Positions 2,171 through 51,154 of a DNA stretch of 58,391 nt are shown one piece after another. Source of the stretch: a virus; IMG/VR virus record IMGVR_UViG_3300020580_000002, positions 1 to 58,391 of that record; one strand, written 5' to 3'. A program made the translations under genes and the position numbers. The notes below the pieces were generated by a model. That model searched no databases and was not told the origin of the DNA. It saw nothing but the letters and a program-made list of their open reading frames with translations. How positions within the stretch are numbered: the stretch's first letter is position 1; the number at the start of each line of letters is the position of its first letter.

Positions 2171-3070
2171 ATGGTAAGCGAATACCTCATAGACCAAATC
2201 CTGCCACGCCGCGAAGTGCACCTTATAGCTGGTCCAAGCGGTGCCGGTAAGAGCACCTGGGCACTTCAAACACTTGTTGAGCAGTGGCAGGTTGGCAAAG
2301 AGGTACTAGGCTATAAGAGCTTTCCTGTCCCATGGCTGTACGTCTCAGGCGACCGCTCCATGGAGAGCGTTGAGCGCACCCTTAGGCGCATTGGCATCCC
2401 ACGCAGCAACATCAACGTTTTCAGTTGCATAGACACTCGTGTGTTCAACATTGGCAGCATCATTAAGAAGGCTATGACTGCCCCTGTACCACCGCGCTTC
2501 TTCTTTTTCGAGGGTTTCATCTCGCTCATGCTCGCCAGTGGCCTCAAGAATGAGTACAAAGACGTATCGTGGTTCCTCACCGGGCTGACCGCTACCTGCA
2601 AGGAGCAAGACATCACCATCCTTGGCTCTTGCCACGCCCCCAAAATGAAGAGTGATTCTTGGTACATGAACCCTCGCGAACGCATCCTTGGCAGTGCAGG
2701 TTGGGGTGGGTTCTGCGAAACTATTATCGTCATAGAGCCAGTTACTAGTACTGGGAACGTGGCAGACGCTTTGCCCCTTCGGCGCTTATATGTGCTGCCC
2801 CGCAACGCAGCCGAAAGGTCCATTGACCTAGTCTTCGACACCAACGGCCGGTTAGTAGAGTCCGAAGCTGAATTGTACACAGCTCTCTTCACAGCCTTCT
2901 TAGGCAAGTTCGCCGCTGGCGCCACTTTCAAGGCAGAAGCAGCTTACGAAACCCTCACGGACGCTGGTCTGTCTAGAGCCACCGTGACACGTTACCTGGA
3001 CAAAGCTGTCGCCGACGGCCGACTATCGAAGGTCGCACATGGAACGTATGCTGTAAACAGGGTAGCGTGA
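2171..3070 (+). CDS. RepA-like hexameric replicative helicase/AAA ATPase
   Basis: The 299-residue cytoplasmic protein has a P-loop GPSGAGKST at about residues 21-29, a FFFFEG strand in the Walker B position, and a later GSCHAPK segment resembling the sensor loop of RepA/AAA_25 ATPases (RSF1010 RepA type). The last 60 residues look like a winged helix (SRATVTRYLDKAVADGRL). The start at ATG 2171 has GGAGGGAG just upstream; a GTG 34 codons earlier lacks one. It stands in a two-gene plus-strand unit followed directly by an iteron-like repeat cluster, so it probably opens or unwinds the origin. No DnaB, primase or RNA polymerase gene was seen elsewhere. Confidence 0.75.
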   Translation: MVSEYLIDQILPRREVHLIAGPSGAGKSTWALQTLVEQWQVGKEVLGYKSFPVPWLYVSGDRSMESVERTLRRIGIPRSNINVFSCIDTRVFNIGSIIKKAMTAPVPPRFFFFEGFISLMLASGLKNEYKDVSWFLTGLTATCKEQDITILGSCHAPKMKSDSWYMNPRERILGSAGWGGFCETIIVIEPVTSTGNVADALPLRRLYVLPRNAAERSIDLVFDTNGRLVESEAELYTALFTAFLGKFAAGATFKAEAAYETLTDAGLSRATVTRYLDKAVADGRLSKVAHGTYAVNRVA

Positions 3071-4521: not shown

Positions 4522-4733
4522 GGCGGCCTGCGCTTTTTGCGTACCCGGTCTGCTTCCTGAGCCGCCTTGAGCGCATCGTCCATGACCTTCTTGCGCTTCA
4601 AAGCGTCAGCAGCATCCTTCAGCGCTCGCTGCATAGCATCAGTACTGCCTACGTCAACAGGTACTGGTACTTGCTCGTCGGTACCAGTACTGCCCGTTCC
4701 AACCGGTCGTTTGCGCTGCAACTGTTCGCTCAT
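4506..4733 (-). CDS. Hypothetical helical protein ending in a Cys run
   Basis: The 75-residue protein has GAAAGGGGG upstream of its ATG. The middle is an Ala/Lys/Asp-rich helix (about residues 33-65) and the protein ends PPCCCC, four adjacent cysteines. No family is recognised. It starts inside the stop of the upstream gene. Confidence 0.6.
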   Translation of the reverse strand: MSEQLQRKRPVGTGSTGTDEQVPVPVDVGSTDAMQRALKDAADALKRKKVMDDALKAAQEADRVRKKRRPPCCCC

Positions 4734-5205: not shown

Positions 5206-6621
5206 TCAGCCTCCTTGCACCGCTCCCTGAATCTTCGCAACACCCTCGACCTTGACCCCATGCCGCTCAGCGTAATCCTCAATCTCCAACCGGTGGCTCA
5301 AGCGCAGGTGCTCTAAGTAAACACCCTCGAACGCAGCATCAATGTCACCCTCACAAAGCGCACCACTCTTATGCCCACCAGCTACGCACCTATGAATAGC
5401 CTTAGCACTAGCCTGCTCCACTAGGCCAGCTATCATGGCACCACTTACTGTATGGTACATGTGAAAGGTAACTGTACCTTTACTGGTACGTAACTGATAC
5501 AAAGGGTACGCATCACTAAACAGTTTCGATGCTGCGTACCCCGGCATGTTGTCACCGCTCACTGGTATGTCACGCAGGTGTATAGCAAAGATGCGAATGG
5601 TCGCATTCAGGTCCGGTGGCGCGACATACACCTTACGGTCAATCCTGCCCGGCCTGGTGACTGCGCTGTCAAGCATGTCGGCCCTGTTGGTGGCCAGTAG
5701 CACAATCGCACCACTCTCTTCCAGACCATCCATCTCACTGAGAAACTGAGGCACAATGGTGTGCTCCATGCCTGACGCGGTACGACTCCCACGTGCAGTC
5801 AACAGCGCATCAGCCTCGTCAATGAAAATAACAGCAGGCCACCCATGCTGCGCCTGGTGCTTGCGAGCCTGCTCAAACAGCCCCCTGATCATCGACTCGG
5901 TCTCACCCACCCACTTTGACAGCAGCTCCGGCCCTTTGATGTAGATGAACGCGCCCGGCACAGTGCGCTTGCCATGGGCAGCAGCAATAGCGCTCACCGT
6001 TGCCTTACCGAGCAGCGTCTTACCATTGCCAGGCAACCCATGCAGCAGCACTCCACGGGCGTGGCGCTTGCCAAAGTGTTTGTAAAGAGCAGCATGCGTA
6101 TAAGGCATCTCCACACTTTCACGCAGCGCCAGCTTGGCATCCTCCAACCCGCCAACATCGTCCCACGTGACGTGCGTATCAGTCGTGAACGCAAACTTGG
6201 GCGGCTTCGTCAGCTTAAGCATGATGACCGTTGACGAGCCATCCATTACCACCTCATCTCCAACCTCAACCGGCACTCGCGTGCTGGCCACCGTCACCGT
6301 ACCCTGCTCCACAGCCACCTGCCAAAAGTCCTTTTCAACCTTGACAACAGTCCCGGTCATCCCATAGGTATCAAACGGCAGAGTACCCACCACCATCCCA
6401 GTAGGTGCCACCTGCACACAATCACCCACCTTCAACGCCTTGCTAGGCATGGGCACCACCGACCCATTACTCAACAACACCTGCTTGCCCTTGACGCTCG
6501 TAACACTAGCCACCTTCGCCGGTATCGCCGTTAGTTCCTCTAACAGCGCCTGCTGCTCGGCAATCTTAGCCTGCGCTTGACGCAGCAACACTTCCATGTT
6601 GTTATCCAACTGAGCCATCAT
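5206..6621 (-). CDS. Proteasome-ATPase-like AAA+ protein (coiled coil, OB-like region, AAA)
   Basis: The 471-residue protein has an N-terminal coiled coil (about 8-32), a beta-rich region (about 38-140) and one AAA module: WDDVGGLEDAK at 153, Walker A GLPGNGKT 195-202, aromatic pore loop SKWVGE 235-240, Walker B VIFIDEAD 264-271 and an SRH with RPGRID 323-328. This order matches Rpt/PAN/Mpa/Cdc48 unfoldases rather than ClpX or Lon. No HbYX tail for docking to a 20S proteasome and no protease domain are present. A role in remodelling or unfolding host or phage proteins is an inference. It is encoded in the same operon as a MoxR/VWA pair. Confidence 0.85.
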   Translation of the reverse strand: MMAQLDNNMEVLLRQAQAKIAEQQALLEELTAIPAKVASVTSVKGKQVLLSNGSVVPMPSKALKVGDCVQVAPTGMVVGTLPFDTYGMTGTVVKVEKDFWQVAVEQGTVTVASTRVPVEVGDEVVMDGSSTVIMLKLTKPPKFAFTTDTHVTWDDVGGLEDAKLALRESVEMPYTHAALYKHFGKRHARGVLLHGLPGNGKTLLGKATVSAIAAAHGKRTVPGAFIYIKGPELLSKWVGETESMIRGLFEQARKHQAQHGWPAVIFIDEADALLTARGSRTASGMEHTIVPQFLSEMDGLEESGAIVLLATNRADMLDSAVTRPGRIDRKVYVAPPDLNATIRIFAIHLRDIPVSGDNMPGYAASKLFSDAYPLYQLRTSKGTVTFHMYHTVSGAMIAGLVEQASAKAIHRCVAGGHKSGALCEGDIDAAFEGVYLEHLRLSHRLEIEDYAERHGVKVEGVAKIQGAVQGG

Positions 6622-6857
6622 CGCCCCCCTTTCGAATCATCCTTGCAGCCAATATCATCGTCGCTGACGTGCACAGTGATAGGCGCGCTGCTCTCAATCA
6701 AAAACGTCACGCGCTTGCCGCCACGATAGGCAGCAGCCCAAAACACACCCGTGTCCATGCGCTCTAATCTGAACAGGTCAGCCGTGACCGCCACATCATC
6801 CACCTGGCCAGCAGCATCCAAGCGCACAGCACTCCACACCTTATCGGCCATGCTCAC
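6618..6857 (-). CDS. Hypothetical protein preceding the AAA+ gene
   Basis: The protein has 79 residues if it starts at GTG 6857 and 77 from ATG 6851; GGGGGTG lies upstream. It ends in TGA overlapping the AAA+ start (ATGA). The composition suggests a small beta-rich fold. Function unknown. Confidence 0.6.
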   Translation of the reverse strand: MSMADKVWSAVRLDAAGQVDDVAVTADLFRLERMDTGVFWAAAYRGGKRVTFLIESSAPITVHVSDDDIGCKDDSKGGR

Positions 6858-7355: not shown

Positions 7356-8053
7356 TCTGCCACCCCCAAGCGCCAAGCAGGCACAATGTTCTGCTCCAGC
7401 TTGCCCTTGTCACCATCAAGCCCCTTGCGCTGATCGTTACATTCACCCCACTCGATGCGTTCACCCATACGAATGCCCTTTTCACCATCATCAGTGCTCA
7501 CCAGCTTGCCCTCTGGATGGCGCTTGTAGAGCATGATCACGCCAACAGCCGTCGCATCAGGATAGATACAGTTAATGGTGAGCGCCTCTTGACGGTCAGG
7601 ATGCTCACTAGGTCTGCCCGCCTGGCGCTGCCACTCCTCAGACTGCTCCTTCGTCAAATCCTTTGGCGTCACCAAACACCACCCATCCGTCACTAACACC
7701 ATAGCAGCAGCTTGATGCTTGGCACAAAACTCACTCAACCCCCGACCAATCTCCCGCTTAGCCCTTGGCCCATTCCAGCCTTCAGGTATCAGGGCCACCA
7801 GCACATGCGGCCCTTGATTCAAAGGCGCATACACCATAGCCATGGGCATGAAGTCTGCGCCCTTCGCTGCTGTCTCGACCAACATGCTGCGCGCCAACTC
7901 CACAGCCTCATCAAACATGGCCTCCACACTCTCGGTCTGCGGCTTCTGGTGCTCATCAGCAGGCACAGGCGCATGTACGAACTCAACCGGCCCATAAGTT
8001 TCGTTTTTGCCCCTTGCTGACCACTTTTTGAGCACGTCGTCAAGGTCGCTCAT
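7352..8053 (-). CDS. Conserved hypothetical phage protein
   Basis: The 233-residue soluble protein begins at ATG 8053, with GAAAGGGGG upstream. It has an alpha/beta mix with strands MVLVTDGW and TAVGVIMLYKR and a conserved-looking RPSEHPDRQEALTINC segment. I recall similar hypothetical proteins in other phages but no function. No catalytic motif is apparent. Confidence 0.65.
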   Translation of the reverse strand: MSDLDDVLKKWSARGKNETYGPVEFVHAPVPADEHQKPQTESVEAMFDEAVELARSMLVETAAKGADFMPMAMVYAPLNQGPHVLVALIPEGWNGPRAKREIGRGLSEFCAKHQAAAMVLVTDGWCLVTPKDLTKEQSEEWQRQAGRPSEHPDRQEALTINCIYPDATAVGVIMLYKRHPEGKLVSTDDGEKGIRMGERIEWGECNDQRKGLDGDKGKLEQNIVPAWRLGVAE

Positions 8054-14553: not shown

Positions 14554-14811
14554 CTACGCGACGCGATTCTGATACCACTGCACCCCACGCTCAGTGAGCT
14601 TGTAGCAATGGCCCGACTTATCAAGCAGCCCATAGCGGACCAACCCGCTCATGAGTTCTTCGAACTGGTCTAACCTCATGACGGCCTGGAGCGCCGCATA
14701 CATCACCCCACCTGGTGCTCCAATGTCAGGATTGGCCACACTCACCGCCTCAATGACGGCATCTACGATGTTAGCCATCACTTTTGCCTGTTGAGCATTC
14801 GTATTCACCAT
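14554..14811 (-). CDS. Small conserved phage protein, possible winged helix
   Basis: The 85-residue protein starts at ATG 14811 after GAAAGGGGG. The sequence GAPGGVMYAALQ..F..LMSGLVRYGLLDKSGHCYKLT looks like a small winged-helix fold and recurs in other phages. It is the first gene downstream of the structured noncoding region. Confidence 0.65.
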   Translation of the reverse strand: MVNTNAQQAKVMANIVDAVIEAVSVANPDIGAPGGVMYAALQAVMRLDQFEELMSGLVRYGLLDKSGHCYKLTERGVQWYQNRVA

Positions 14812-14829
14812 GTATCCCCCTTTCGAATC

Positions 14830-15868
14830 AATGTGAGAGAGCTAGTGCCCTTTTGCCGCATCATGCTTCACCAGCTCTCCCCAAGGCTGCCTTCGCAGCA
14901 TTCAACCCACCTGTCACATGGGCTCAATGCTGCGAGTGTGTCGTTCCTAGAAACACATGCGGTCTGCGCACTGTAACTCAGCACGCTCCTGAACACACTC
15001 ACAGCCACATAGGGGAATCCGCGCACAGGTATCACCGCTTCTCTACACCGCTGTTCTTGGCTCAGCATCTCAGCACATGCGGGTTGCCACTCGCACACAC
15101 GTCAACGCATCATCGCCGCGACTTGTCGGTTATGAGCTAGCGTCCATTCCTGTACTTGTGCTGAACACCGTAGCCCGTTCTGGAGTGCGTCCGGTAGCGT
15201 TCCTCATGCTTCAACCAACTCCGCATGCGCGAAAACTCGTCCCGGTTATCGGCCTAGCAGGACCACCTGTCTCTCTTTACTCATTGGCAACAACAAGTTA
15301 GACAGGCTGTCATGTGCGCCATCAGCTTGCGGAACTCTCACCTGCGTGAGTTAGTCCAAATCGCATTCCCTTACCCGCGTCACCGCGAGCAGGATTATTC
15401 AAGCACACACTCTCTGCATTGACTCTCCAGTGTGGAGCCTTTGATTCGCCAGGGCAGCCGAGTGGCCACCCATGAACGAATGCTCAACACCATCAGCCGT
15501 TTACGGCCATCGAGTGTCCGTTTGCGCGGGGGTCTTGCTGCATGGTGCCAAGCGCCTAGTCGTGACCGCTTCGCTTGACGGTGTAGTGCGACTGAATCCA
15601 GTCGCGTCCGTCACTCACACAGCAGTTGCCGCTACCATCTTGTCTGCCACCCTCACGGCTTGTCTAGGGCCGTTCACCTTCATGCGCCAAGTCAAGAACG
15701 CACTCCGGCGGTGACGAGTCTCTGTTACCTCACGACGCTCCAACCTACCGCTTCGCCTCACCAGCAATCTAGGCCCTGTGTTGGTCAAAACCCACGACAC
15801 AGGCGGTGATGGTCAAACCCACGTCACCAAGCCAACCATGCCAGCGTACGGCCCACGGGAGCGTGCGA
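14830..15868 (-). ncRNA. Candidate large structured RNA (about 1.0 kb, no credible gene)
   Basis: No reading frame here on either strand has a ribosome site or protein-like composition, unlike the tightly packed genes on both sides. Many perfect hairpins are present: CCTGTGT/ACACAGG 15775-15803, GGTGA/TCACC 15805-15828, GCGACTG/CAGTCGC 15588-15605, CTCCA/TGGAG 15425-15437, CTCAC/GTGAG 15337-15350, GCTGC/GCAGC 14892-14905 and an 11-bp stem 14837-14879. GAAGCGGT recurs three times on the minus strand. Minus-strand transcription is inferred from the promoter at 15876-15904. Size and phage setting recall GOLLD/ROOL-type RNAs, but I cannot identify the family. Ends are approximate. Confidence 0.55.
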
Positions 15869-15875
15869 GACAGAG

Positions 15876-15904
15876 CAAGTACTGGTACTCGCCCTCTCTT
15901 GCAA
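15876..15904 (-). promoter_or_regulatory. Candidate promoter for the structured RNA
   Basis: On the minus strand TTGCAA (15904-15899) and TACTTG (15881-15876) are spaced by 17 bp. It lies immediately after the terminator at 15918-15955, as expected for an independently transcribed RNA starting near 15868. Confidence 0.45.
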
Positions 15905-15917
15905 ACTCACGCGCGCG

Positions 15918-15955
15918 AAAAAGAGAGCAGGAGCAGCACAATCGCCGCCCCTGCT
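15918..15955 (-). terminator. Intrinsic terminator after the 60-residue protein gene
   Basis: On the minus strand a 12-bp stem (15955-15944 with 15937-15926, two G-U pairs, six-base loop) is followed by a T-rich run (15925-15918, five consecutive T). It separates the control region and its first gene from the noncoding region. Confidence 0.75.
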
Positions 15956-15963
15956 CAAGCGTA

Positions 15964-16146
15964 TCATGCTCGCAAGTAAGCATTTACGCCAACAATCAGC
16001 GCCTTGCCCTGAACGTTCAGGCCCGATGGCTGATTGCCATGCGTTGTTGCCACCACTAGCGTCTTTCCAGACTTCGACGCAACGGGCGTCTGCATCTGCA
16101 ACGTGATGGTGATGGTGCCAGCCTTCTCGTCAATGACAGTCTTCAT
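15964..16146 (-). CDS. Small conserved protein (MKTVIDEK family)
   Basis: The 60-residue protein begins MKTVIDEKAGTITI and contains SGKTLVVATTHGN and VGVNAYLRA; this short beta-rich protein is common in phages and bacterial genomes without known function. GGGGAG precedes the ATG. It is the first gene of the 16-kb leftward operon and is followed by a terminator, so it may be expressed more strongly than the rest. Confidence 0.75.
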   Translation of the reverse strand: MKTVIDEKAGTITITLQMQTPVASKSGKTLVVATTHGNQPSGLNVQGKALIVGVNAYLRA

Positions 16147-16161
16147 GATGCTTCTCCCCTA

Positions 16162-16177
16162 TGTCGGCCTGCCGACA
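16162..16177. promoter_or_regulatory. Perfect inverted repeat in the leader of the leftward operon
   Basis: TGTCGGC (16162-16168) and GCCGACA (16171-16177) are separated by two bases and lie 16 bases upstream of ATG 16146. A repressor operator or an RNA hairpin acting on the ribosome site are both possible. Confidence 0.45.
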
Positions 16178-16256
16178 ATGCCGTGCTGGCTAGGTTGGCT
16201 CCCCTGCCAGCGGCGAAAAACGCGAACGCAATGCACCGTGCAAAGCGCTTGCCAAA

Positions 16257-16279
16257 CCGCAAGTCGTTGAAAACAAACG
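16257..16279. repeat. 23-bp direct repeat, copy A
   Basis: CCGCAAGT-CGT-TGAAAACAAACG. The same sequence with a different three-base centre occurs at 16365-16387, 108 bp away. Possible binding site of a phage regulator in the divergent control region. Confidence 0.55.
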
Positions 16280-16283
16280 TGCC

Positions 16284-16300
16284 TAGTACTCTTAGTACTC
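16284..16300. repeat. Tandem TAGTACTC repeat
   Basis: TAGTACTC occurs at 16284-16291 and 16293-16300. Each unit contains the palindrome AGTACT. The related AGTACCA/TGGTACT inverted repeat lies at 16401-16431. Confidence 0.4.
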
Positions 16301-16364
16301 GCGAAAGTGACCGTTTTTGTCTTTATATCAAACTGAGAAACGCGGCAATTCGCGGTGAAAACGC

Positions 16365-16387
16365 CCGCAAGTGTATGAAAACAAACG
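16365..16387. repeat. 23-bp direct repeat, copy B
   Basis: CCGCAAGT-GTA-TGAAAACAAACG, identical to copy A outside the three central bases. Copy spacing of 108 bp is close to ten helical turns, which would fit cooperative binding by looping. Confidence 0.55.
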
Positions 16388-16400
16388 CGCAAAAAGTGTC

Positions 16401-16431
16401 AGTACCAAAACGTCACATTTTGTCTGGTACT
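16401..16431. promoter_or_regulatory. Inverted repeat AGTACCA-17-TGGTACT, candidate operator
   Basis: A perfect 7-bp inverted repeat with a 17-bp spacer, ending 10 bp before a TAAAAT (16441-16446). The spacer holds CACATTTTGTC (16414-16424), an 11-mer that also overlaps the -35 region of the helicase promoter (2063-2073). Confidence 0.4.
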
Positions 16432-16598
16432 ACACTGTTGTAAAATAGACACGCGCGCGTACCCTTTTTGCGGCCGCGCGACTCTCGCGTGCGCGTGCGC
16501 GCATGGGTACCCTTACGGTGCTTTCCGAGCCTACGCCTCACTCTAACGGTTACGACGATTTTTTCATCCTGGTGTATGCAAAAAATTTTGGAATGTTC

Positions 16599-16628
16599 TT
16601 GCAGTACCCCCATCGGGTATGGTATAGA
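16599..16628 (+). promoter_or_regulatory. Candidate promoter for the HNH gene
   Basis: TTGCAG (16599-16604) and TATAGA (16623-16628) are separated by 18 bp, directly before the ATG at 16635. The leader would be extremely short, so the AGAGGTG ribosome site may lie partly upstream of the transcript start. Confidence 0.35.
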
Positions 16629-16634
16629 GGTGCT

Positions 16635-16958
16635 ATGCCAAGGTGGCCAGTTCGTACGGTGGTCGAGCGGTTCATGGCGCAGGTCGAGGTAGCAGGAACT
16701 TGTTGGCTATGGAAGGGTAAGCGGCACAAATACAAGGGTTACGGGTACTTTAAGCTGACTACCGGTAAGTCAGGCGGCAAACATATCATCGCTCATCGCT
16801 TTGCGTACATGCAGTTTGTCGGTCCGATACCTGACGATAGACCAGTTTTGGACCACTTGTGCTTAGTGAGAAGGTGCGTTAACCCGTCGCATTTAGAGCC
16901 TGTGACTGTTGCAGAAAATAACCGAAGGGCAGCACGGGTGAGGCATGGGTCAGTCTGA
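16635..16958 (+). CDS. HNH homing endonuclease
   Basis: The 107-residue protein starts at ATG 16635 behind AGAGGTG. Motifs: CWLWKG, GYGYFKL, AHRFAY, LDHLCLVRRCVNPSHLEPVTVAENNRR, i.e. the HNH_3 ββα-metal nuclease with the general-base His in LDHLC. It cuts DNA and probably spreads itself as a free-standing homing gene. It stands alone on the plus strand and ends inside the convergent gene. Confidence 0.85.
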   Translation: MPRWPVRTVVERFMAQVEVAGTCWLWKGKRHKYKGYGYFKLTTGKSGGKHIIAHRFAYMQFVGPIPDDRPVLDHLCLVRRCVNPSHLEPVTVAENNRRAARVRHGSV

Positions 16959-17225
16959 GGTAGGTGCCAATGGGTGGTCGGTGCCGTCCAAGGTCCACCA
17001 GTCGCAAAGCCATTTCGGGTCGACACCGCTGACGTCAGTCTGCTCACTGCGAAATATCTCGCACACCCCAAAGCCGTCAACCTGGCGGGTGTAGAAGTGG
17101 GCACAGTTCTCGCATCGTTGCTCTGAGCCACGAGGCGCTTTGCGATATCCTACCTGCTCAGCACTGAACTTCTCGGGCCGGTCAGCCACCATGTCGTCAT
17201 AGTCCCGTTTGGTGATCTTCGACAT
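16950..17225 (-). CDS. Small four-Cys protein, HiPIP-like
   Basis: The 91-residue protein starts at ATG 17225 after GGAGG. The second half has RCENCAHFY, CEIF and KWLCDWW. The spacing of the four Cys and the Trp-rich end resembles small high-potential iron-sulfur proteins (often annotated so in phages). A zinc site is the alternative; the metal cannot be told from sequence. Confidence 0.6.
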   Translation of the reverse strand: MSKITKRDYDDMVADRPEKFSAEQVGYRKAPRGSEQRCENCAHFYTRQVDGFGVCEIFRSEQTDVSGVDPKWLCDWWTLDGTDHPLAPTSD

Positions 17226-17430
17226 CGCGTGCCTCCAGACCTTCCCTACGCCCTGCGGCATGCTGCTCCTCACCGGTCGACTTCAACAACTCGGTGAGCC
17301 TGCTGTTCACAATGACGTGCAACTCTTTGATAGCGTATTTGTTGTGGATGGAGATGAGCAACGTGAGAATGGAGAGGATGGTCGGTGGCGCCGTCGTGAT
17401 GAGCGCTGCCACCGTTGTGGGTTCAAGCAT
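17197..17430 (-). CDS. Small membrane protein with cytoplasmic coiled coil, holin-like
   Basis: The 77-residue protein has an N-terminal membrane segment (about residues 8-28) followed by a helical ELHVIVNSRLTELLK stretch and a charged tail. Such one-span proteins with a VNSRL helix occur near phage lysis genes, but here no endolysin is adjacent. It overlaps both neighbours. Confidence 0.5.
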   Translation of the reverse strand: MLEPTTVAALITTAPPTILSILTLLISIHNKYAIKELHVIVNSRLTELLKSTGEEQHAAGRREGLEARDVEDHQTGL

Positions 17431-18456: not shown

Positions 18457-19014
18457 ATGGACGACACCTTCACCGCCGCCGCAGCGCAAATCGCCGCCAG
18501 CGCTGACGCCCCTGCTAACGCACTAAAGAAACGCCAGCCACTCACCGAGGAACAAAAAGAAGTCCTGCGCAAGCGCCTCGACGTTGCCCGCGCCAAGCGC
18601 AGTGCTCTCGCCAAAGCGGGCCTGCTACGCGCTAAGGCACCGCGCAAAGTTATGAAACCTGCGCCCCAGCCCGTCACCATCGCACCATCCAACACCTTCA
18701 CCATGTGGTCCAACGACGAATGGCGCGACGCTCCCTACGCCGTCGCCCTCCAGCGCCTTACCGACCTCACCCAGGACCGCGAGCGCGGTGCCTCTCTCGT
18801 CCAGCAAAAGCGCGACTCCGAGCGCATCCCCGCCACCTACAACTGCATCGTCTGCAAAAAACCAGTCCAAGACGGCCGCTGGATATGGAAAAACGACCGC
18901 CGCGACGAAGTCACGCAGCTCTACACCAGCGACGTCCTATGCTCACAGATTTGCCACGAACGCTTTAGCAACAACGCAAAGTTTTACTTAGACCGCGCCA
19001 AGGGAGTGTCGTGA
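18457..19014 (+). CDS. Hypothetical protein preceding the large terminase, possible small terminase
   Basis: The 185-residue protein has a helical basic N-terminal half (residues 23-60, LTEEQKEVLRKRLDVARAKR) and a C-terminal Cys cluster (CIVCKK, CSQICHERF) like a zinc finger. It has GAGGT upstream and overlaps the large terminase start by four bases. Position would suit a small terminase subunit, but the sequence does not prove it. The 71-bp gap before it holds no gene. Confidence 0.55.
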   Translation: MDDTFTAAAAQIAASADAPANALKKRQPLTEEQKEVLRKRLDVARAKRSALAKAGLLRAKAPRKVMKPAPQPVTIAPSNTFTMWSNDEWRDAPYAVALQRLTDLTQDRERGASLVQQKRDSERIPATYNCIVCKKPVQDGRWIWKNDRRDEVTQLYTSDVLCSQICHERFSNNAKFYLDRAKGVS

Positions 19015-20756
19015 ACTTTCGTAATGCAGTAACGTGGCTCAGCAAGCTAAAAATAAAACACCGCGACACCGGCCGCACCGTTCCCTTCCGCCTAAACGCC
19101 AACCAGCAAAAAGCCATGAAAGCGCTCCAAGAACAATACGACGAAATCGGCATGGTACGCACCATCATCCTCAAAGCCCGGCGCGTCGGCATGTCCTCCC
19201 TCATGGATTCCCTCGGCCTGCTACACTGCCTCGCGCGACCTCAAGCCCACGCAAAAATAGTCGCTCACTTGCAGTCAACGGCCGAGGGCCTCTTTCGCGT
19301 CCCTCGCGACCTGGTCGGAGGACTCCCTTATGGAAACACCGCAGTCGACGTACGCACCCGCCGCATCATCGTCCCCCACCCCGACGGTGATTCAATCCTT
19401 GACATTTCGACAGCAGGTTCTGTCATCGGTGGACGTGGCCTTACGCTATCATTTGTGCACCTGTCAGAGGCCGCTTTCTTCCCAGGAGAGGACTCCTTCT
19501 TGTCACTGCTGCCTGCTGTCTCAGACGGCGACGACACCTTTGTCGCCATTGAATCTACTGCGAACGGCCGTGTCGGGCCTGGTAAAGCGTTTTATGACTT
19601 CTGGAATAGCGCTGTGGCCGGAAAGAACGGATACGTCCCCATCTTCCTCCCCTGGCTCGACGACCCCGCCTGCATTAGACCCGAGGAAGAAGCAGGGGAT
19701 GCCCCTGCCTCTGACATCGAGCGAGAGCTTATGCGCGACTTCCACGCCACTAAAGCACAAATCGCGTGGTTCCGCCGCACCCTAGAAGACAAGTGCCAAG
19801 GCCTGTTGCCAAAAATGATGCAGGAATATCCGCATACGCCCGAAGTCGCATTCGTCGCATCGGGCGACCCGGCCTTCCCGCGCGAGGAGATAATCTATGT
19901 CCGCTCCACTGTCGAAAAACCGCTCCGGCGCGGTCGTGTTCGCTGGGATGGGAACGCTAATCGCGTTCTCTTTGAGGACGTCCGCAACGGACTGCTGCAC
20001 ATCTGGCGCGCTCCTGAACCCAAACACCACTACTACGTCGGCGCTGACGCCGCCACCGGCATCGAAGACGGCGACTTCGCCGCTTATGTGGTCTTCGACG
20101 GCACCACTGGCGAGCAAGTAGCCCGCTACGCCGACCGCATCCACCCTGAGCACCTTGCGGACCAGCTCAACCTAGTCGGCCACTACTACAACAAAGCGAT
20201 GGTGAACATTGAGCTGACCGGCAATTTAGGCAGACATGCACTGAAGGTGCTGCGCGATGACCACCGCTACACCAACTTCTACATCTGGAAAGGCAAAGAC
20301 GACCGCAAACCCGGTGCTCGCACCGGCATGCCCCTGATCGGCTGGGAAACAACCTCAGCCAGCAGGCGCAAACTCTTCGACACTTTCAGAGCGGGCGTGC
20401 GCAGCGGCATGCGCGATGAGGAGGGTGGCCTGGCCATCTACGACGATGCCCTCGTGCAACAAATGGACAACGCTACATTCTACGAAGGCTTTATGTGGGA
20501 GGTCGAGCGAGGCAACGATGACATCCTATTTGCAGCAATGCTGGGCGTCATCGCCATGTCTCAATGGCCCCCGCCGCGCGTCACCAACCGCTCGCGCAAA
20601 CCGGACATCGACGACGAGAGAGCGTACAACCCGCTCTCTGCTATGGGGATTAGACCACAGGAACCAGTCGAACTAAGCCTACGCCGCCACTACCAACTCA
20701 CCATGAAAGCCTTACGTACCGCCACCGGCAAGCCCACAGGCTTGGAGGGCATATGA
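19011..20756 (+). CDS. terL: Terminase large subunit
   Basis: The 581-residue DNA-packaging motor has an N-terminal ATPase with P-loop KARRVGMSS (55-63) and Walker B strand LSFVHLSEAA (146-155), then an RNase H-like nuclease beginning YVGADAATGIEDGDFAAYVVFD (about 342-363) with the first catalytic Asp, a second acidic strand MVNIELTGN and a late Asp region. It cuts and pumps DNA into the prohead through the portal. GTG 19011 overlaps the upstream stop. Confidence 0.92.
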   Translation: MNFRNAVTWLSKLKIKHRDTGRTVPFRLNANQQKAMKALQEQYDEIGMVRTIILKARRVGMSSLMDSLGLLHCLARPQAHAKIVAHLQSTAEGLFRVPRDLVGGLPYGNTAVDVRTRRIIVPHPDGDSILDISTAGSVIGGRGLTLSFVHLSEAAFFPGEDSFLSLLPAVSDGDDTFVAIESTANGRVGPGKAFYDFWNSAVAGKNGYVPIFLPWLDDPACIRPEEEAGDAPASDIERELMRDFHATKAQIAWFRRTLEDKCQGLLPKMMQEYPHTPEVAFVASGDPAFPREEIIYVRSTVEKPLRRGRVRWDGNANRVLFEDVRNGLLHIWRAPEPKHHYYVGADAATGIEDGDFAAYVVFDGTTGEQVARYADRIHPEHLADQLNLVGHYYNKAMVNIELTGNLGRHALKVLRDDHRYTNFYIWKGKDDRKPGARTGMPLIGWETTSASRRKLFDTFRAGVRSGMRDEEGGLAIYDDALVQQMDNATFYEGFMWEVERGNDDILFAAMLGVIAMSQWPPPRVTNRSRKPDIDDERAYNPLSAMGIRPQEPVELSLRRHYQLTMKALRTATGKPTGLEGI

Positions 20757-21581: not shown

Positions 21582-23285
21582 ATGGCCGTCACCACCTTCA
21601 GCAGGCGTAAAACGGAAGTCGACAATCCCGACCTGGTGATCATCCGCCAGCTTGACGAACTCCAGCGCCTCTCCGCAGACGAACGAGACAAACAACTCGG
21701 CACCGGCTTCTTCAGCGACCTGCGCCGTTTCTTCAGTATGGACGCTGCTTCGACCGCCTGGGCCACTCCAAACTTCCGCCCCCGCGTGCAAATCCCCGAC
21801 CTGCAGATAGCCCTCCTCAACGAAGCCACTGACATCAGCGACGCTTCCCCGCGCATCTTCCTGCTCAAGGGCGGCAAGCGCGACGCCCAACGCGAAACGG
21901 CTTTCCAAGAACATTGGAAGCAAATGCACTTCAACAACCGCCTGATGGAAGTAGACATCTGGGCACTCTTCGCAGGCACCGGCTTCGCACAAGTAGGCTT
22001 CGACCCTGACGCCCGCCGTGGACGCGGCGAAGTCTGGATAGAATCCCGCGACCCCGATACCGTCTATCCCGACCCGGCCACGCGCGACTTCACCAAATGG
22101 CTGTACGTCCAGTACGTCGACACCATGTACATCGACGAAGTCCGCAAGCGCTGGCCCGAGCGCGGCTGGTCCATCCGCCCCCGTCGCGGCTCCACTTTCA
22201 GCATCGGCACCAGCGAAGTCTCGCCCACCTTCAAGACCACTCCCGGCCCCATGAAGTTTGCAACCTCAGCCCCAGGCACCCGCCAGCCTGACCCGAACCC
22301 GCTCGTAACGGTGCGCCACACTTTCATCCGCGACTTCACCACCGAGGAAATCAGCAAAGAAGAACGCGAACGCATGGCCGAGCAGCTTGGCCCACTAGTG
22401 ACCCCGCCTAAGCACAAACCGCGCTGGCCAAACGGAAGGTACCTAATTGACTGCGAAGAAATCCTGCTTGCCGACGGCGAAAATCCTTATCCTCTGGGCC
22501 GCTTTCCGATTATCCCCTTTCACGGCATGCCTAGCCTTGGCAGCTTCTGGGCGCCTCCGGGCATCCGTTACACTCGCGGTCTGCAATTCCTTGCTGAACG
22601 TATGCTTACTCAGACATTCGAAAACGCCGTCCGCTTAAACAACGGCGTGTGGTTCATCCACGAAGACACCGGCATCAGCGCCGACGACTTCGGCGGCATA
22701 CCCGCTGAGATTCGCGTCATCAACCGTGGCTCACAGTTTCCAGAAGTAAGGTGGCCCACTGCCATGCCGCAGCACATGACCCAGTTACCCGAGATGCTCC
22801 TCGCCAAGCAAAAAGAACTACTCGGCATGCAAGGCGCACGCTCCGGCCAGCAAGGCCACGGTAACATCTCACCAGACCTGGCCGACACCTCTATTCTCGA
22901 AAGCAGCAAGTTGACGCGGTTGCGCATGCGAATCTTGGCCGAGTCTGTACAAAACTTGAGCGAGTTAGTGTTCTACACCATGGCGCGCTACTACGACGAC
23001 TACCGCTTCCCGAAATTCGACAACAAGGGCGGCACCGACCTTATCACCTGGTCTTCTATTGCGACAGCATACGACGACTACGACATCTATCTGGACCAGG
23101 CTTCTGCATACGCTGTCAGCGCCAGCAGCATGCGCCGCCTCGTTCTTGCGCTCTTAGAGAAAGGCCACGTCCCACTCAAGTTCGCGCTAGAACAACTCGA
23201 CATACCCGGTGCTACGGAGATTGCTGAGCAAGCCGAGCAACAGAACCAATTGAACGCACTGCTGAAACTCAAGAGGCCCCGGTGA
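21582..23285 (+). CDS. Portal protein
   Basis: The 567-residue protein has the layout of podovirus portals: an N-terminal wing, a tyrosine/proline-rich core (ESRDPDTVYPDPATRDF), a clip-like middle (FPIIPFHGMPSLGSFW), a long helical C-terminal section (LTRLRMRILAESVQNLSELVF) and a Gln/Leu-rich end. It forms the DNA gate at one head vertex and docks TerL. One base separates it from the gene before it. Confidence 0.85.
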   Translation: MAVTTFSRRKTEVDNPDLVIIRQLDELQRLSADERDKQLGTGFFSDLRRFFSMDAASTAWATPNFRPRVQIPDLQIALLNEATDISDASPRIFLLKGGKRDAQRETAFQEHWKQMHFNNRLMEVDIWALFAGTGFAQVGFDPDARRGRGEVWIESRDPDTVYPDPATRDFTKWLYVQYVDTMYIDEVRKRWPERGWSIRPRRGSTFSIGTSEVSPTFKTTPGPMKFATSAPGTRQPDPNPLVTVRHTFIRDFTTEEISKEERERMAEQLGPLVTPPKHKPRWPNGRYLIDCEEILLADGENPYPLGRFPIIPFHGMPSLGSFWAPPGIRYTRGLQFLAERMLTQTFENAVRLNNGVWFIHEDTGISADDFGGIPAEIRVINRGSQFPEVRWPTAMPQHMTQLPEMLLAKQKELLGMQGARSGQQGHGNISPDLADTSILESSKLTRLRMRILAESVQNLSELVFYTMARYYDDYRFPKFDNKGGTDLITWSSIATAYDDYDIYLDQASAYAVSASSMRRLVLALLEKGHVPLKFALEQLDIPGATEIAEQAEQQNQLNALLKLKRPR

Positions 23286-26966: not shown

Positions 26967-27944
26967 ATGGCTGGAGTTGTGGGCACGGGAGTTCAACAAC
27001 CTACTGCACAAATGATTAATACTTTGGACGCAATTAGTCAAAAGTATATTCACGGCGAAATCGGCGATATCGTCTTCAAGCCGTCGCCTCTCTTCTGGGC
27101 GCTCATGCGCAACGGTAAAGACATTCGTTATGGCGCTGAGTTGGTGTTCCCGCTGGTGACCGCCGAAGAAACCACCGGCGGCGCCTACTACGGCGACCAG
27201 CTCTTGAACACCACCGTAGTCGACTCAGTCATCCCAGCGAACCAAGTCTGGCGCCCTTATTACCAGAACGTCTCGCTCCCGGTGACCGACATCATCCTCG
27301 GTCGTGGCGGCAGCGCCGGTCTCGACCTCGTCGAAGTCAAGCTCGAAATCGGCGGCGCCTCGTTGCTGCAGAAGCTAGCTAGGGCAGTCTGGCATACAGC
27401 GCCGCAGAATACGGCGCTAGACGTCGACGACATCGACTCTTGGGTACGCCAGACCGCCAACGTCATCGCCGGTATCGACCGCACCGTGACCACTGCATGG
27501 CAGCCTGCCGCAAACTTCGCTGCTGGTGGCGCCCTCACCGCTGCCAACGCTGAGCTGGCATACCAGCGCGTCGTGCTGGGCTACGACGAACCCGACGTCC
27601 TAGTGCTCACCAACACCGACTTCGCCGGTTTCAAGAACAACTTCACCGGCCTCATCCGGTTCGCAAATTTGGAGCAAGACACTGAGGCGCTGCAAGCCGG
27701 ATTCCGCTACCACTTCGTTTACAACAACGCAGTAGTCATAGCCGACCCGTTCTGCCCAGCAACCCAAGGCTACCTGCTCAACAGCAAATACATCTTCCCG
27801 GTATTCAACGGTAACGACTACTTCGTCATGGACCCATGGATGCAGCCTTCGAACCAGCGCGTGGTCGTGACCAAAATTTACCTGCAGTGGCAGATTTCAT
27901 GCACCTCGCCCCGCATGCAGGTAGCAATCACAGGTATGCCGTAA
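26967..27944 (+). CDS. Major capsid protein
   Basis: The 325-residue protein is placed after the scaffold, has AAGGAG upstream, and has the composition of HK97-fold capsid proteins (N-arm, KPSPLFWALMRNG, a beta-rich LVFPLVTAEETTGGAYYGD E-loop-like segment, and a strand-rich C-terminus YFVMDPWMQPSNQRV). No other gene in the operon fits this role better. Confidence 0.8.
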   Translation: MAGVVGTGVQQPTAQMINTLDAISQKYIHGEIGDIVFKPSPLFWALMRNGKDIRYGAELVFPLVTAEETTGGAYYGDQLLNTTVVDSVIPANQVWRPYYQNVSLPVTDIILGRGGSAGLDLVEVKLEIGGASLLQKLARAVWHTAPQNTALDVDDIDSWVRQTANVIAGIDRTVTTAWQPAANFAAGGALTAANAELAYQRVVLGYDEPDVLVLTNTDFAGFKNNFTGLIRFANLEQDTEALQAGFRYHFVYNNAVVIADPFCPATQGYLLNSKYIFPVFNGNDYFVMDPWMQPSNQRVVVTKIYLQWQISCTSPRMQVAITGMP

Positions 27945-48362: not shown

Positions 48363-48427
48363 CGGTGGGCGCCTTGGAGTACTAGTACGAAAATGAGCAC
48401 CAACTCTGCGCACATGAGCACCAGCAT
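48359..48427 (-). CDS. 22-residue membrane peptide
   Basis: ATG 48427 shares a base with the polymerase stop (TAATG) and its TGA overlaps the next start (ATGA). The peptide is almost entirely Leu/Val/Ile/Met with one acidic residue. The double coupling supports translation. Role unknown; it may only pass ribosomes to the next gene. Confidence 0.4.
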   Translation of the reverse strand: MLVLMCAELVLIFVLVLQGAHR

Positions 48428-51135
48428 TATCTCGCGATAGTTGCGGTTAAGCCAGTTTTCCATTCTTGCATGCCTCCTAAGTTGTCTTCAGCGAAGGGAG
48501 CAGCGTTGTCGCCCACGCTGACTTCGGCGCCAATGGTCAGCCCTTCGAGCTCGTCGATGGGCGAAGTCATCACGTCGTAGAGTGTTTGGGCGTATCGTCC
48601 CACGTGCTCATCCGGCACGTCGGCAATGATCGCGTCGTGGACAAGCAGGCAGAGCCAGGGGGCACACTCGGGCAGACGATGAAGCAGGCGCGCGACGATG
48701 ATGCGCTGGATGGCGGCGGCGGCGCTTTGGGGCTTGAAGGCCACGGCGCGCTTGGCGTCGTCGCCAAATTCCCACGATTGGCGGCGTGCGTTCCAAGCAT
48801 ACAGGCTGTAAAAACGATGGCGCAGGTTGAAGCCATTTTCGAGAGCCTTGTTCGCGTGCGCCAGCTCCACGGTGGCTTTCTGCCAGGCACGCACATCGAG
48901 GCCGGGCTCGCTGCCCAGGTAGAATTGCTGCAGCTTACCTGCTTCTTTCTCAGTGGCGAAGTCATCGGGGTATTCTTCATGAATGCGCCTCTTAGTACCT
49001 AAGTAGTTACTAAGGTGAATGACGCGCTTAATTTTCTCGTAGTCGGCTGGCCAGGTGCGCTTCGAGGCTTTGCATAGCTTGGTCAAAGTTGCGTCGTCTA
49101 AATCCAGCGAGATTGGCTGACCGTGAAGTGCCGATGTAAGCCAGCCATGCACTCCCGACTTTGCTAAGCGCATATACCGTGTCGAGTTCGCGAAGTACCC
49201 GACCAAGACGGCTTCTATCGCTGCAGAATCGCCCTCGACTATCTTGTGGCCCGGCGTGGCGACGATCATGCGTCTGAACAGGTGCGCGAGGTCGCTTCGC
49301 TTGGGGATGGTTTGCAGATTTTGATTGCGGCATGAGAGCCTCCAAGTGCTGGGATGAAACCCGAGAGTGTAGTGTACGCGGTCGTCAGCGTCCAGCGGCC
49401 ACTTGTAGGTGCTGACGAGTTTCCAACGTTCGCGGCATGCGAGAATGTGTTTGAAGACCGGGTACTTTTTGACGTAGTGTGAGAGCGTTTTCTTGTCCGT
49501 AGCGAGCGCTTCTTCATCGGTCTCCTTGGTGGTGTCGCGTGGCGGGAGTTTGATGCCCAGGTGTTTAGCGAGGCGCTGGATTTGCTGCCAGGAGTCTACG
49601 TTGAATTCCAAGCGGCGCATGTAGCGGTAAGGCGTCGCGCTCGCGAGTTTCGCTGCACTCTCGACGTAATGGAGCGAAGAACCGTCATCGGTTCTGAGCG
49701 ACTCCTGATTTGCGGGCACCGGTTCGTGCAGGTCGGCCAGTAGCGCGCCTAGTTTGTCTCCGACTGCTGCCAGTATTTCCTGCTGCGCTGGCGGTAGCAG
49801 TGGTAGTTCCTCGACACCTGCCATGTCCTTCGGGGGGCGCTTCCACATTTTGACAGGTCGGACGGCGTCAGGTACCAGGGCTTGCACCTTCGCGTTTTCG
49901 ATATCCCATTCGGCTTCAAGGCGGGCCATGAACTCAGCTTGGTAGGCGCGGTCGATGCGCAGGCCCTTTTTGCCCATGCGCTGGAGGACCGGGTCGAAGT
50001 CGGTGCAATGGCGCTCAAATGATGACCACCGCCCCTGAGCGATGAGAGCTGCGCGCGTACCTAAGTAGCAGTCGTTTCCAATCGCGTTGTCGAGCGCGTT
50101 GTACCGGCCGGGTTCCGCCGCGTTCAAGTGCTTCCATGGCGGGCCTGCATAGAAGAACGGTGCTACCAGTCCTAACCCTTTCCGTAAATCGCTCTGCAAC
50201 CAATGCCACGCCCACATCCCCGACACAACCTTTGCAGGGATAGATAGACCGGCCGCAGCAAGGCGGCGCGTGTCGTAGTGGTTGTCTGCCCATTCGACTA
50301 CCTCCTCTGCGCGAGAGAGGGCGTCGCGCATGATTGATATGTATGGTTCTTCCCACGGGAACGAACAGGCAGTCCCTTGGCGCACGCTGAACCCTGCGCG
50401 GACGATGGTGTACGATGGCCCCTTCTCGTCCAGGTCTTCTTCGTCTAGCGAGCTGCTCTCTGGCGTTTCAATGTCAACAAACAGGCTCCCAATTCGAGGG
50501 CCCGCGCTAGCAACGTACGCTTTAAGATCAGCAGGAGGTACATCGACCAGCAGCGTATAAGCAGTGTCATGGTAGGTGCCGTCTGCAATCTGTCCAGCAC
50601 GCTGGAGTGCCCAGAGGACGACCGGCACGAGACTTTGCTTTCCACGCAAGAGGTAAGCCGGATGAAAAGTTGGTACAGCCGGTATTCCATATGGAGTAGG
50701 TAGTACATAGCCTGCTCGCTCCTCAATGCCCGAGACGCCGCAGACGCGCCGGAGGGCCACGTTGCCCATCGGGACGATGACGCGGGGGCGGCGCTGTTCG
50801 ATTAGCTCATCCAGATTTGGTCGGCAGTGCTCGATGGCCGTGACCGCTTCAGGGTGCGGTCGGTCCATCCAACCTAGATATTTCGGGGCGCAGAAGATGC
50901 TGTTGGCAACGGTCAGGTCGTTGCGCTGCATACCGCCGCCTGGCATCAACGAGAGGATGCGGTCAAGGAGCCTACCTGCTGCTCCGGCGAAGACTCGCCC
51001 GGCCGCTAGCTCATCCTTCCAGACGCTGTCCCCGACCAACATGACACCACTGGAGCCACTCCCATCAGGGCCAATGAAGCGCTGACCATGCGCTGAGTGG
51101 GGACAGGAATCGCAAAACTTACCGTTAGGGGGCAT
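48427..51135 (-). CDS. Uracil-DNA glycosylase domain fused to family A DNA polymerase
   Basis: The 902-residue protein starts at ATG 51135 (GTG 51147 also possible). Residues 1-200 resemble a family 4 UDG: CDSC, then SIFCAP and EHCRP (four Cys, as for a 4Fe-4S cluster) and FHPAYLLR. Then a 3'-5' exonuclease (VDIET, NHYDTRRL, YNALDN) and polymerase motifs: A (VEGDSAAIEAVL), B (KIKRVIHLSNYLG) and C (VHDAIIADVP, Ala for the usual Glu). Such a fusion is known from SPO1-type phages. Probably the replicative polymerase. Confidence 0.85.
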   Translation of the reverse strand: MPPNGKFCDSCPHSAHGQRFIGPDGSGSSGVMLVGDSVWKDELAAGRVFAGAAGRLLDRILSLMPGGGMQRNDLTVANSIFCAPKYLGWMDRPHPEAVTAIEHCRPNLDELIEQRRPRVIVPMGNVALRRVCGVSGIEERAGYVLPTPYGIPAVPTFHPAYLLRGKQSLVPVVLWALQRAGQIADGTYHDTAYTLLVDVPPADLKAYVASAGPRIGSLFVDIETPESSSLDEEDLDEKGPSYTIVRAGFSVRQGTACSFPWEEPYISIMRDALSRAEEVVEWADNHYDTRRLAAAGLSIPAKVVSGMWAWHWLQSDLRKGLGLVAPFFYAGPPWKHLNAAEPGRYNALDNAIGNDCYLGTRAALIAQGRWSSFERHCTDFDPVLQRMGKKGLRIDRAYQAEFMARLEAEWDIENAKVQALVPDAVRPVKMWKRPPKDMAGVEELPLLPPAQQEILAAVGDKLGALLADLHEPVPANQESLRTDDGSSLHYVESAAKLASATPYRYMRRLEFNVDSWQQIQRLAKHLGIKLPPRDTTKETDEEALATDKKTLSHYVKKYPVFKHILACRERWKLVSTYKWPLDADDRVHYTLGFHPSTWRLSCRNQNLQTIPKRSDLAHLFRRMIVATPGHKIVEGDSAAIEAVLVGYFANSTRYMRLAKSGVHGWLTSALHGQPISLDLDDATLTKLCKASKRTWPADYEKIKRVIHLSNYLGTKRRIHEEYPDDFATEKEAGKLQQFYLGSEPGLDVRAWQKATVELAHANKALENGFNLRHRFYSLYAWNARRQSWEFGDDAKRAVAFKPQSAAAAIQRIIVARLLHRLPECAPWLCLLVHDAIIADVPDEHVGRYAQTLYDVMTSPIDELEGLTIGAEVSVGDNAAPFAEDNLGGMQEWKTGLTATIAR

Positions 51136-51154
51136 AGAGGTCTGCACCTGCTAC

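Follow-up and report, generated by a model that had tools for sequence, protein, structure and literature searches.

The window, the 58,391-base virus record analysed here over its whole length, contains a gap of 1152 nt (14812-15963) that is the largest left by the gene caller; the locus raises the question of what is encoded there, if not a protein. An earlier note, made from the DNA letters, had proposed a large structured phage RNA at 14830-15868; the gene-free stretch itself stands but is slightly longer than given there, and the conserved RNA is predicted to run on the minus strand from about 15864 to 14990.

The gap and its neighbours

The gene caller relies on codon usage and was trained on this phage; the best ORF inside the gap scores 4.8, where a called gene needs 12, in agreement with the earlier claim that the ~1-kb stretch is gene-free, and every frame contains at least six stops. 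The second-longest gap left by the caller (16147-16949) contains an HNH endonuclease gene at 16503-16958(+) that the caller missed. Both genes flanking the putative RNA lie on the minus strand, as does the RNA; small leftward genes are found to the left of the terminase gene, and no tRNA genes are present in the 58.4 kb window (Table 1).

The ORF directly 5' of the RNA encodes a conserved 60-aa protein that serves as a locus marker, with 55-65% amino acid identity beside the RNA in relatives L043 and L003; the protein with its motif is widespread, with 82 relatives in IMG/VR, and 80 related loci were retained from there. A 15-base leader, TGATTCGAAAGGGGG, is shared by the 85-aa gene downstream of the RNA (14816-14830) and an AAA ATPase gene at 5206-6621(-), which it precedes at 6625-6639. 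The short inverted motif GTACCAGTAC/GTACTGGTAC recurs between genes in both phages (window 4657-4694 and 15875-15892; L043:1661) and is a possible binding site. Another neighbour, at 16950-17273(-), is a conserved small Cys-containing phage protein with Pfam similarity to HiPIP (E 4e-5, just above the cut-off), which is odd for a phage.

The intrinsic terminator reported to precede the RNA on the minus strand is present in form at 15956-15925, following the 60-aa gene; a counterpart follows the same gene in L043 (3004-2982(-)), and a similar hairpin is visible in L003. The promoter claimed along with it, a -35/-10 pair belonging to the RNA, could not be recovered, as a scan for sigma-70-like sites returned none on the minus strand between terminator and RNA; the sole minus-strand site in the scan precedes the 60-aa gene, at 16444-16417.

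Table 1. Positions in the window of the putative RNA, its predicted parts and nearby or marker genes
Feature	Position	Strand	Remarks
85-aa ORF downstream of RNA	14554-14811	-	weak winged-helix similarity; PF14947, E 0.0047, below curated cut-off
Window-specific 3' extension	14830-14975	-	z -4.6, with two strong hairpins; does not align to the relatives
Conserved core of the putative structured RNA	14990-15864	-	65-69% nt identity, 3 sequences; 37 consensus helices; 67 two-sided pairs
Domain D	15021-15157	-	closed by 15155-15150/15028-15023; invariant apical segment GTGGCAACC
Long-range helix	5' arm 15483-15490, 3' arm 15158-15165	-	8 bp, 5 covarying
Nested long-range helix (helix 20)	5' arm 15425-15430, 3' arm 15180-15185	-	6 bp, 2 covarying
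Covarying hairpin (helix 18)	15445-15480	-	conserved TGGCGAA on 3' side
Domain B, multibranch	15484-15644	-	closed by GTAGCGG/CCGCGC; covarying long helix and GATGGC hairpin
Domain A, three-way junction	15643-15749	-	covarying hairpin 15703-15698/15687-15682; invariant AACAGANACTCGTCAC, GGTGAACGGCCCTA
Long hairpin near putative 5' end	15857-15914	-	fold predicted for 15915-15772; L043 has a similar inverted sequence
Intrinsic terminator-like hairpin of 60-aa gene	15925-15956	-	14-bp stem, TCTTTTT tail
Conserved 60-aa ORF directly 5' of RNA	15964-16146	-	motif SGKTLVxAxTHGNQ
Terminase	19011-20756	+	
Portal	21582-23285	+	
Major head protein	26967-27944	+	
DNA polymerase	48427-51147	-	

Conservation, covariation and architecture

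Relatives were gathered through terminase and head-protein searches, and the gap is conserved as DNA in three IMG/VR records (3300046667_000002, 3300045109_000002 and 3300037852_000499), the first two being identical over the RNA locus. These syntenic relatives (G001, G003 and G002) comprise two identical copies and one partial copy, cut by a contig end; the comparative set, drawn from a single narrow clade, numbers three distinct sequences, one of them truncated. In the relatives the 60-aa gene sits immediately 5' of the RNA; the terminase gene is on the other side at a distance of about 3 kb. At the nucleotide level the core is 65-69% identical; the 60-aa gene, at 61-64%, and the next intergenic gap, at 47-58%, are lower. 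In the best blocks, identity reaches 81% (288 nt) and 75% (366 nt).

The mode of change in the core does not resemble that of a gene: gaps that are not multiples of three account for 12/17, 16/17 and 11/17 of those in the aligned core, and substitutions display neither a third-position excess nor a codon phase. A conserved protein frame, which the earlier note had named as grounds for rejecting its proposal, was looked for in the homologues and not found; covariation, the check it had set, is present and strong on the minus strand. The consensus fold contains 223 pairs in 37 helices and 92.5% of its cells are paired, falling to 30% when the pairing register is slid by one column; pairs changed on both sides number 67 on the final structure compared to 25.5 in shuffles. 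The consensus structure was derived from the same alignment that scores it, so shuffles that are themselves re-folded are the fairer control; 60 such column shuffles, which keep neither dinucleotides nor phylogeny, gave 35.2 +/- 4.7 two-sided pairs (maximum 46) against 69 observed. An exhaustive listing of helices that is independent of folding energy finds seven with at least three covarying pairs, where 0.3 would be expected by chance; all seven helices checked, including the two best-supported, are contained in full in the unconstrained consensus fold, and covarying helices span up to ~330 nt. Among ungapped unpaired columns, 57% are invariant.

Scored against column shuffles, RNAalifold yields a minus-strand z of about -7.5 to -7.9 and a plus-strand z of -4.0; of the two strands, the minus strand is the favoured one for the RNA. 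Hairpins are abundant, as had been described, and the full minus-strand fold has a z of -2.9 (20 shuffles); a 900-nt subset gives -1.4 (40 shuffles) and the L003 sequence is unremarkable (z +0.3), so single-sequence folding scores are too weak to serve as support. Since the stretch codes for no protein and is kept in relatives with compensating changes, a large folded RNA is very likely; same-locus homologues, absent coding conservation and minus-strand covariation all favour the original proposal.

In the predicted architecture the long 5' hairpin and domains A and B come first; the 15490/15158 and 15430/15180 helices then hold together a large central domain, which is followed by domain D. 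The arms of the best-supported helix (15490-15483/15165-15158) read GTGTTGAG/TTCAGCAC, GTATGGTG/CACCATAC and GCATTGTA/TGCAGTGC in the three sequences; the second-best helix, which closes domain D, has 6 bp of which four covary. Two invariant segments are complementary (GTTGCCA/TGGCAAC), a match with no covariation that possibly represents a pseudoknot or kissing contact. The 3' end is variable among the sequences and L043 carries two extra perfect hairpins at a peripheral position; added peripheral hairpins are the usual pattern for structured RNA. Toward the 5' end of its RNA the window has two copies of the module CGTGGGTTTGACC (15784-15826(-)), one with an extra T; L043 has a single copy (2201-2216(-)), which lies within a different insertion of the RNA.

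Comparison with known large RNAs and distribution

The earlier note had likened the stretch to GOLLD and ROOL without assigning it to either, and the model searches agree with that restraint. Rfam 15 gives no family match in the window, the gathering score and E <= 10 returning only chance-level matches; the GOLLD model (RF02032) finds nothing at its gathering score and, across four records, nothing at E <= 10, and the HEARO model (RF02033) does not match. The ROOL (RF03087) and OLE (RF01071) models are also without a match, although no control genome gave a match for either; the Rfam-wide cmscan likewise recovered neither.

GOLLD is often, not obligatorily, found near tRNAs. The window RNA resembles GOLLD in being phage-borne, longer than 800 nt and without a protein frame, with many predicted long-range helices; it differs in that no tRNA lies in the 58.4 kb, the GOLLD model does not match, and its invariant blocks are distributed throughout the core instead of in one 3' region. 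With ROOL it shares the character of a large ornate phage RNA; however, at ~0.9-1.1 kb it contrasts with a 574-position ROOL model, which it does not match, and it too is without tRNAs. OLE and HEARO are similarly large structured RNAs, bacterial or phage-associated, yet neither model matches and no partner protein is recognised. The ICP1 phage expresses a ~800-nt non-coding RNA that is its most abundant transcript and is similar in size to GOLLD and ROOL (PMC7567579). Like that RNA, the window RNA occupies a ~1-kb ORF-less gap in a lytic phage without tRNAs; transcription is established for the ICP1 RNA, whereas the window RNA is predicted from sequence.

Distribution appears to be narrow. 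Three covariance models run against 42 virus records gave significant matches only in the four known records; BLAST of phage and plasmid collections found no homologue, a distant BLAST of the phage collection with the RNA region found nothing, motif scans of IMG/VR returned only chance matches beyond the known copies, and a motif scan of GTDB genomes only chance matches among the matches listed. One motif match, in L301, lies inside a DNA polymerase gene and is attributed to chance. Not every member of the group has the RNA, since two relatives with 43% terminase identity (L050 and L051) have another ORF directly after the 60-aa gene.

Relatives at 56-60% identity have gene-free gaps of 1.1-1.5 kb close to the corresponding place (L045:8137-9193, L046:1224-2429 and L048:8341-9853) with minus-strand folding z of about -3; these gaps have no sequence or model similarity to the RNA and no sequence similarity among themselves, an unfiltered scan also finding nothing, and are possibly other structured RNAs. 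A hairpin common to the window and L048 is considered a chance match, as it lies on the opposite strand with E ~0.1. Among the leftward genes lying upstream of its terminase gene, L045 (IMGVR 3300036790_000209) also has a clear twister-P5 ribozyme at 7468-7526(-), scoring 55 bits (E 8e-9); none is found in the window.

Two traits of large structured phage non-coding RNAs are seen in the window RNA as predicted from the alignment, namely the lack of a conserved protein frame and an extensive structure supported by covariation. As no Rfam, GOLLD, ROOL, OLE or HEARO match and no homologue elsewhere in the collections searched was found, it probably represents a new, narrowly distributed family of the GOLLD/ROOL kind that is a member of neither.

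Probable role and alternative readings

It is proposed, with a probability of roughly 0.6, that the minus strand between the 60-aa and 85-aa genes encodes a ~0.9-1.1 kb non-coding RNA that folds on itself into several domains joined by long-range helices and acts in trans as a scaffold. The RNA would be transcribed together with the leftward genes during infection, would be stable owing to its fold, and may act as a structural scaffold that is either RNA-only, by analogy to GOLLD and ROOL, or an RNA-protein assembly. Both GOLLD and ROOL form RNA-only cages, the GOLLD cage being a homo-oligomeric 14-mer (PMC12286853); with these cages and the abundant ICP1 RNA as analogues, we infer that the RNA most likely serves as a self-folding scaffold.

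The same position could instead be that of a very long structured 5' leader regulating the 85-aa winged-helix-like gene in cis, with an RNA segment able to hide the gene start. That gene is the next one downstream and shares the strand of the RNA, and codons 4-8 (14789-14802) are the exact complement of the 14 nt at 15476-15489, with a duplex energy of -44.4 compared to -32.2 +/- 3.0 for shuffled start regions. The complementarity is seen in the window only, however, and its RNA segment overlaps the best-supported covarying helix; the fold is also far bigger than known leaders. In L043 the search around the RNA recovered no counterpart of the 85-aa gene, and the ORF lying downstream in that phage lacks such pairing at its start; because the downstream gene changes between the two phages while the RNA stays, a trans-acting RNA is preferred and the leader is considered unlikely. 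A catalytic or processed RNA (an undescribed ribozyme, an intron-like element or the guide part of an RNP) would suit the invariant unpaired blocks, the HNH endonuclease gene 0.5 kb away and the ribozyme in the same region of a relative; with no match to group I, group II, HEARO or a ribozyme, an RNA that sits between genes and interrupts none, and no IscB/IsrB-like protein recognised among the window proteins scanned, this reading is quite improbable.

The conserved inverted repeats could also act as DNA, in a replication origin or a packaging or recombination site, and a locus dense in hairpins about 3 kb from the terminase gene would fit; the helices nevertheless link segments hundreds of bases apart, the RNAalifold consensus is stronger on one strand, and G-U exceeds A-C by 6:1 (small numbers) in those strand-neutral helices that carry two or more double changes, leaving little likelihood for a DNA element. 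Decayed coding sequence or a neutral spacer with chance hairpins would be compatible with the only moderate single-sequence z-scores, yet conservation above that of neighbouring genes, out-of-frame indels and strong compensatory change make it scarcely credible.

The trans-acting scaffold may be taken one step further, to an RNA with no common ancestry with GOLLD and ROOL that likewise forms an RNA-only homo-oligomer, a cage or ring, in infection; this extension is tentative and rather doubtful, and if true it would mean that RNA-only assemblies arose more than once in phages. To our knowledge few large phage RNAs have been described (GOLLD, ROOL and the ICP1 RNA), none with an established role. 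The present locus suggests that a kilobase RNA absent from Rfam can exist within a narrow clade of phages, and one more unrelated family whose consensus fold is defined would be another natural experiment; should it be oligomeric, or abundant at lysis, the role of large ornate phage RNAs would become a comparative question and no longer an anecdotal one.
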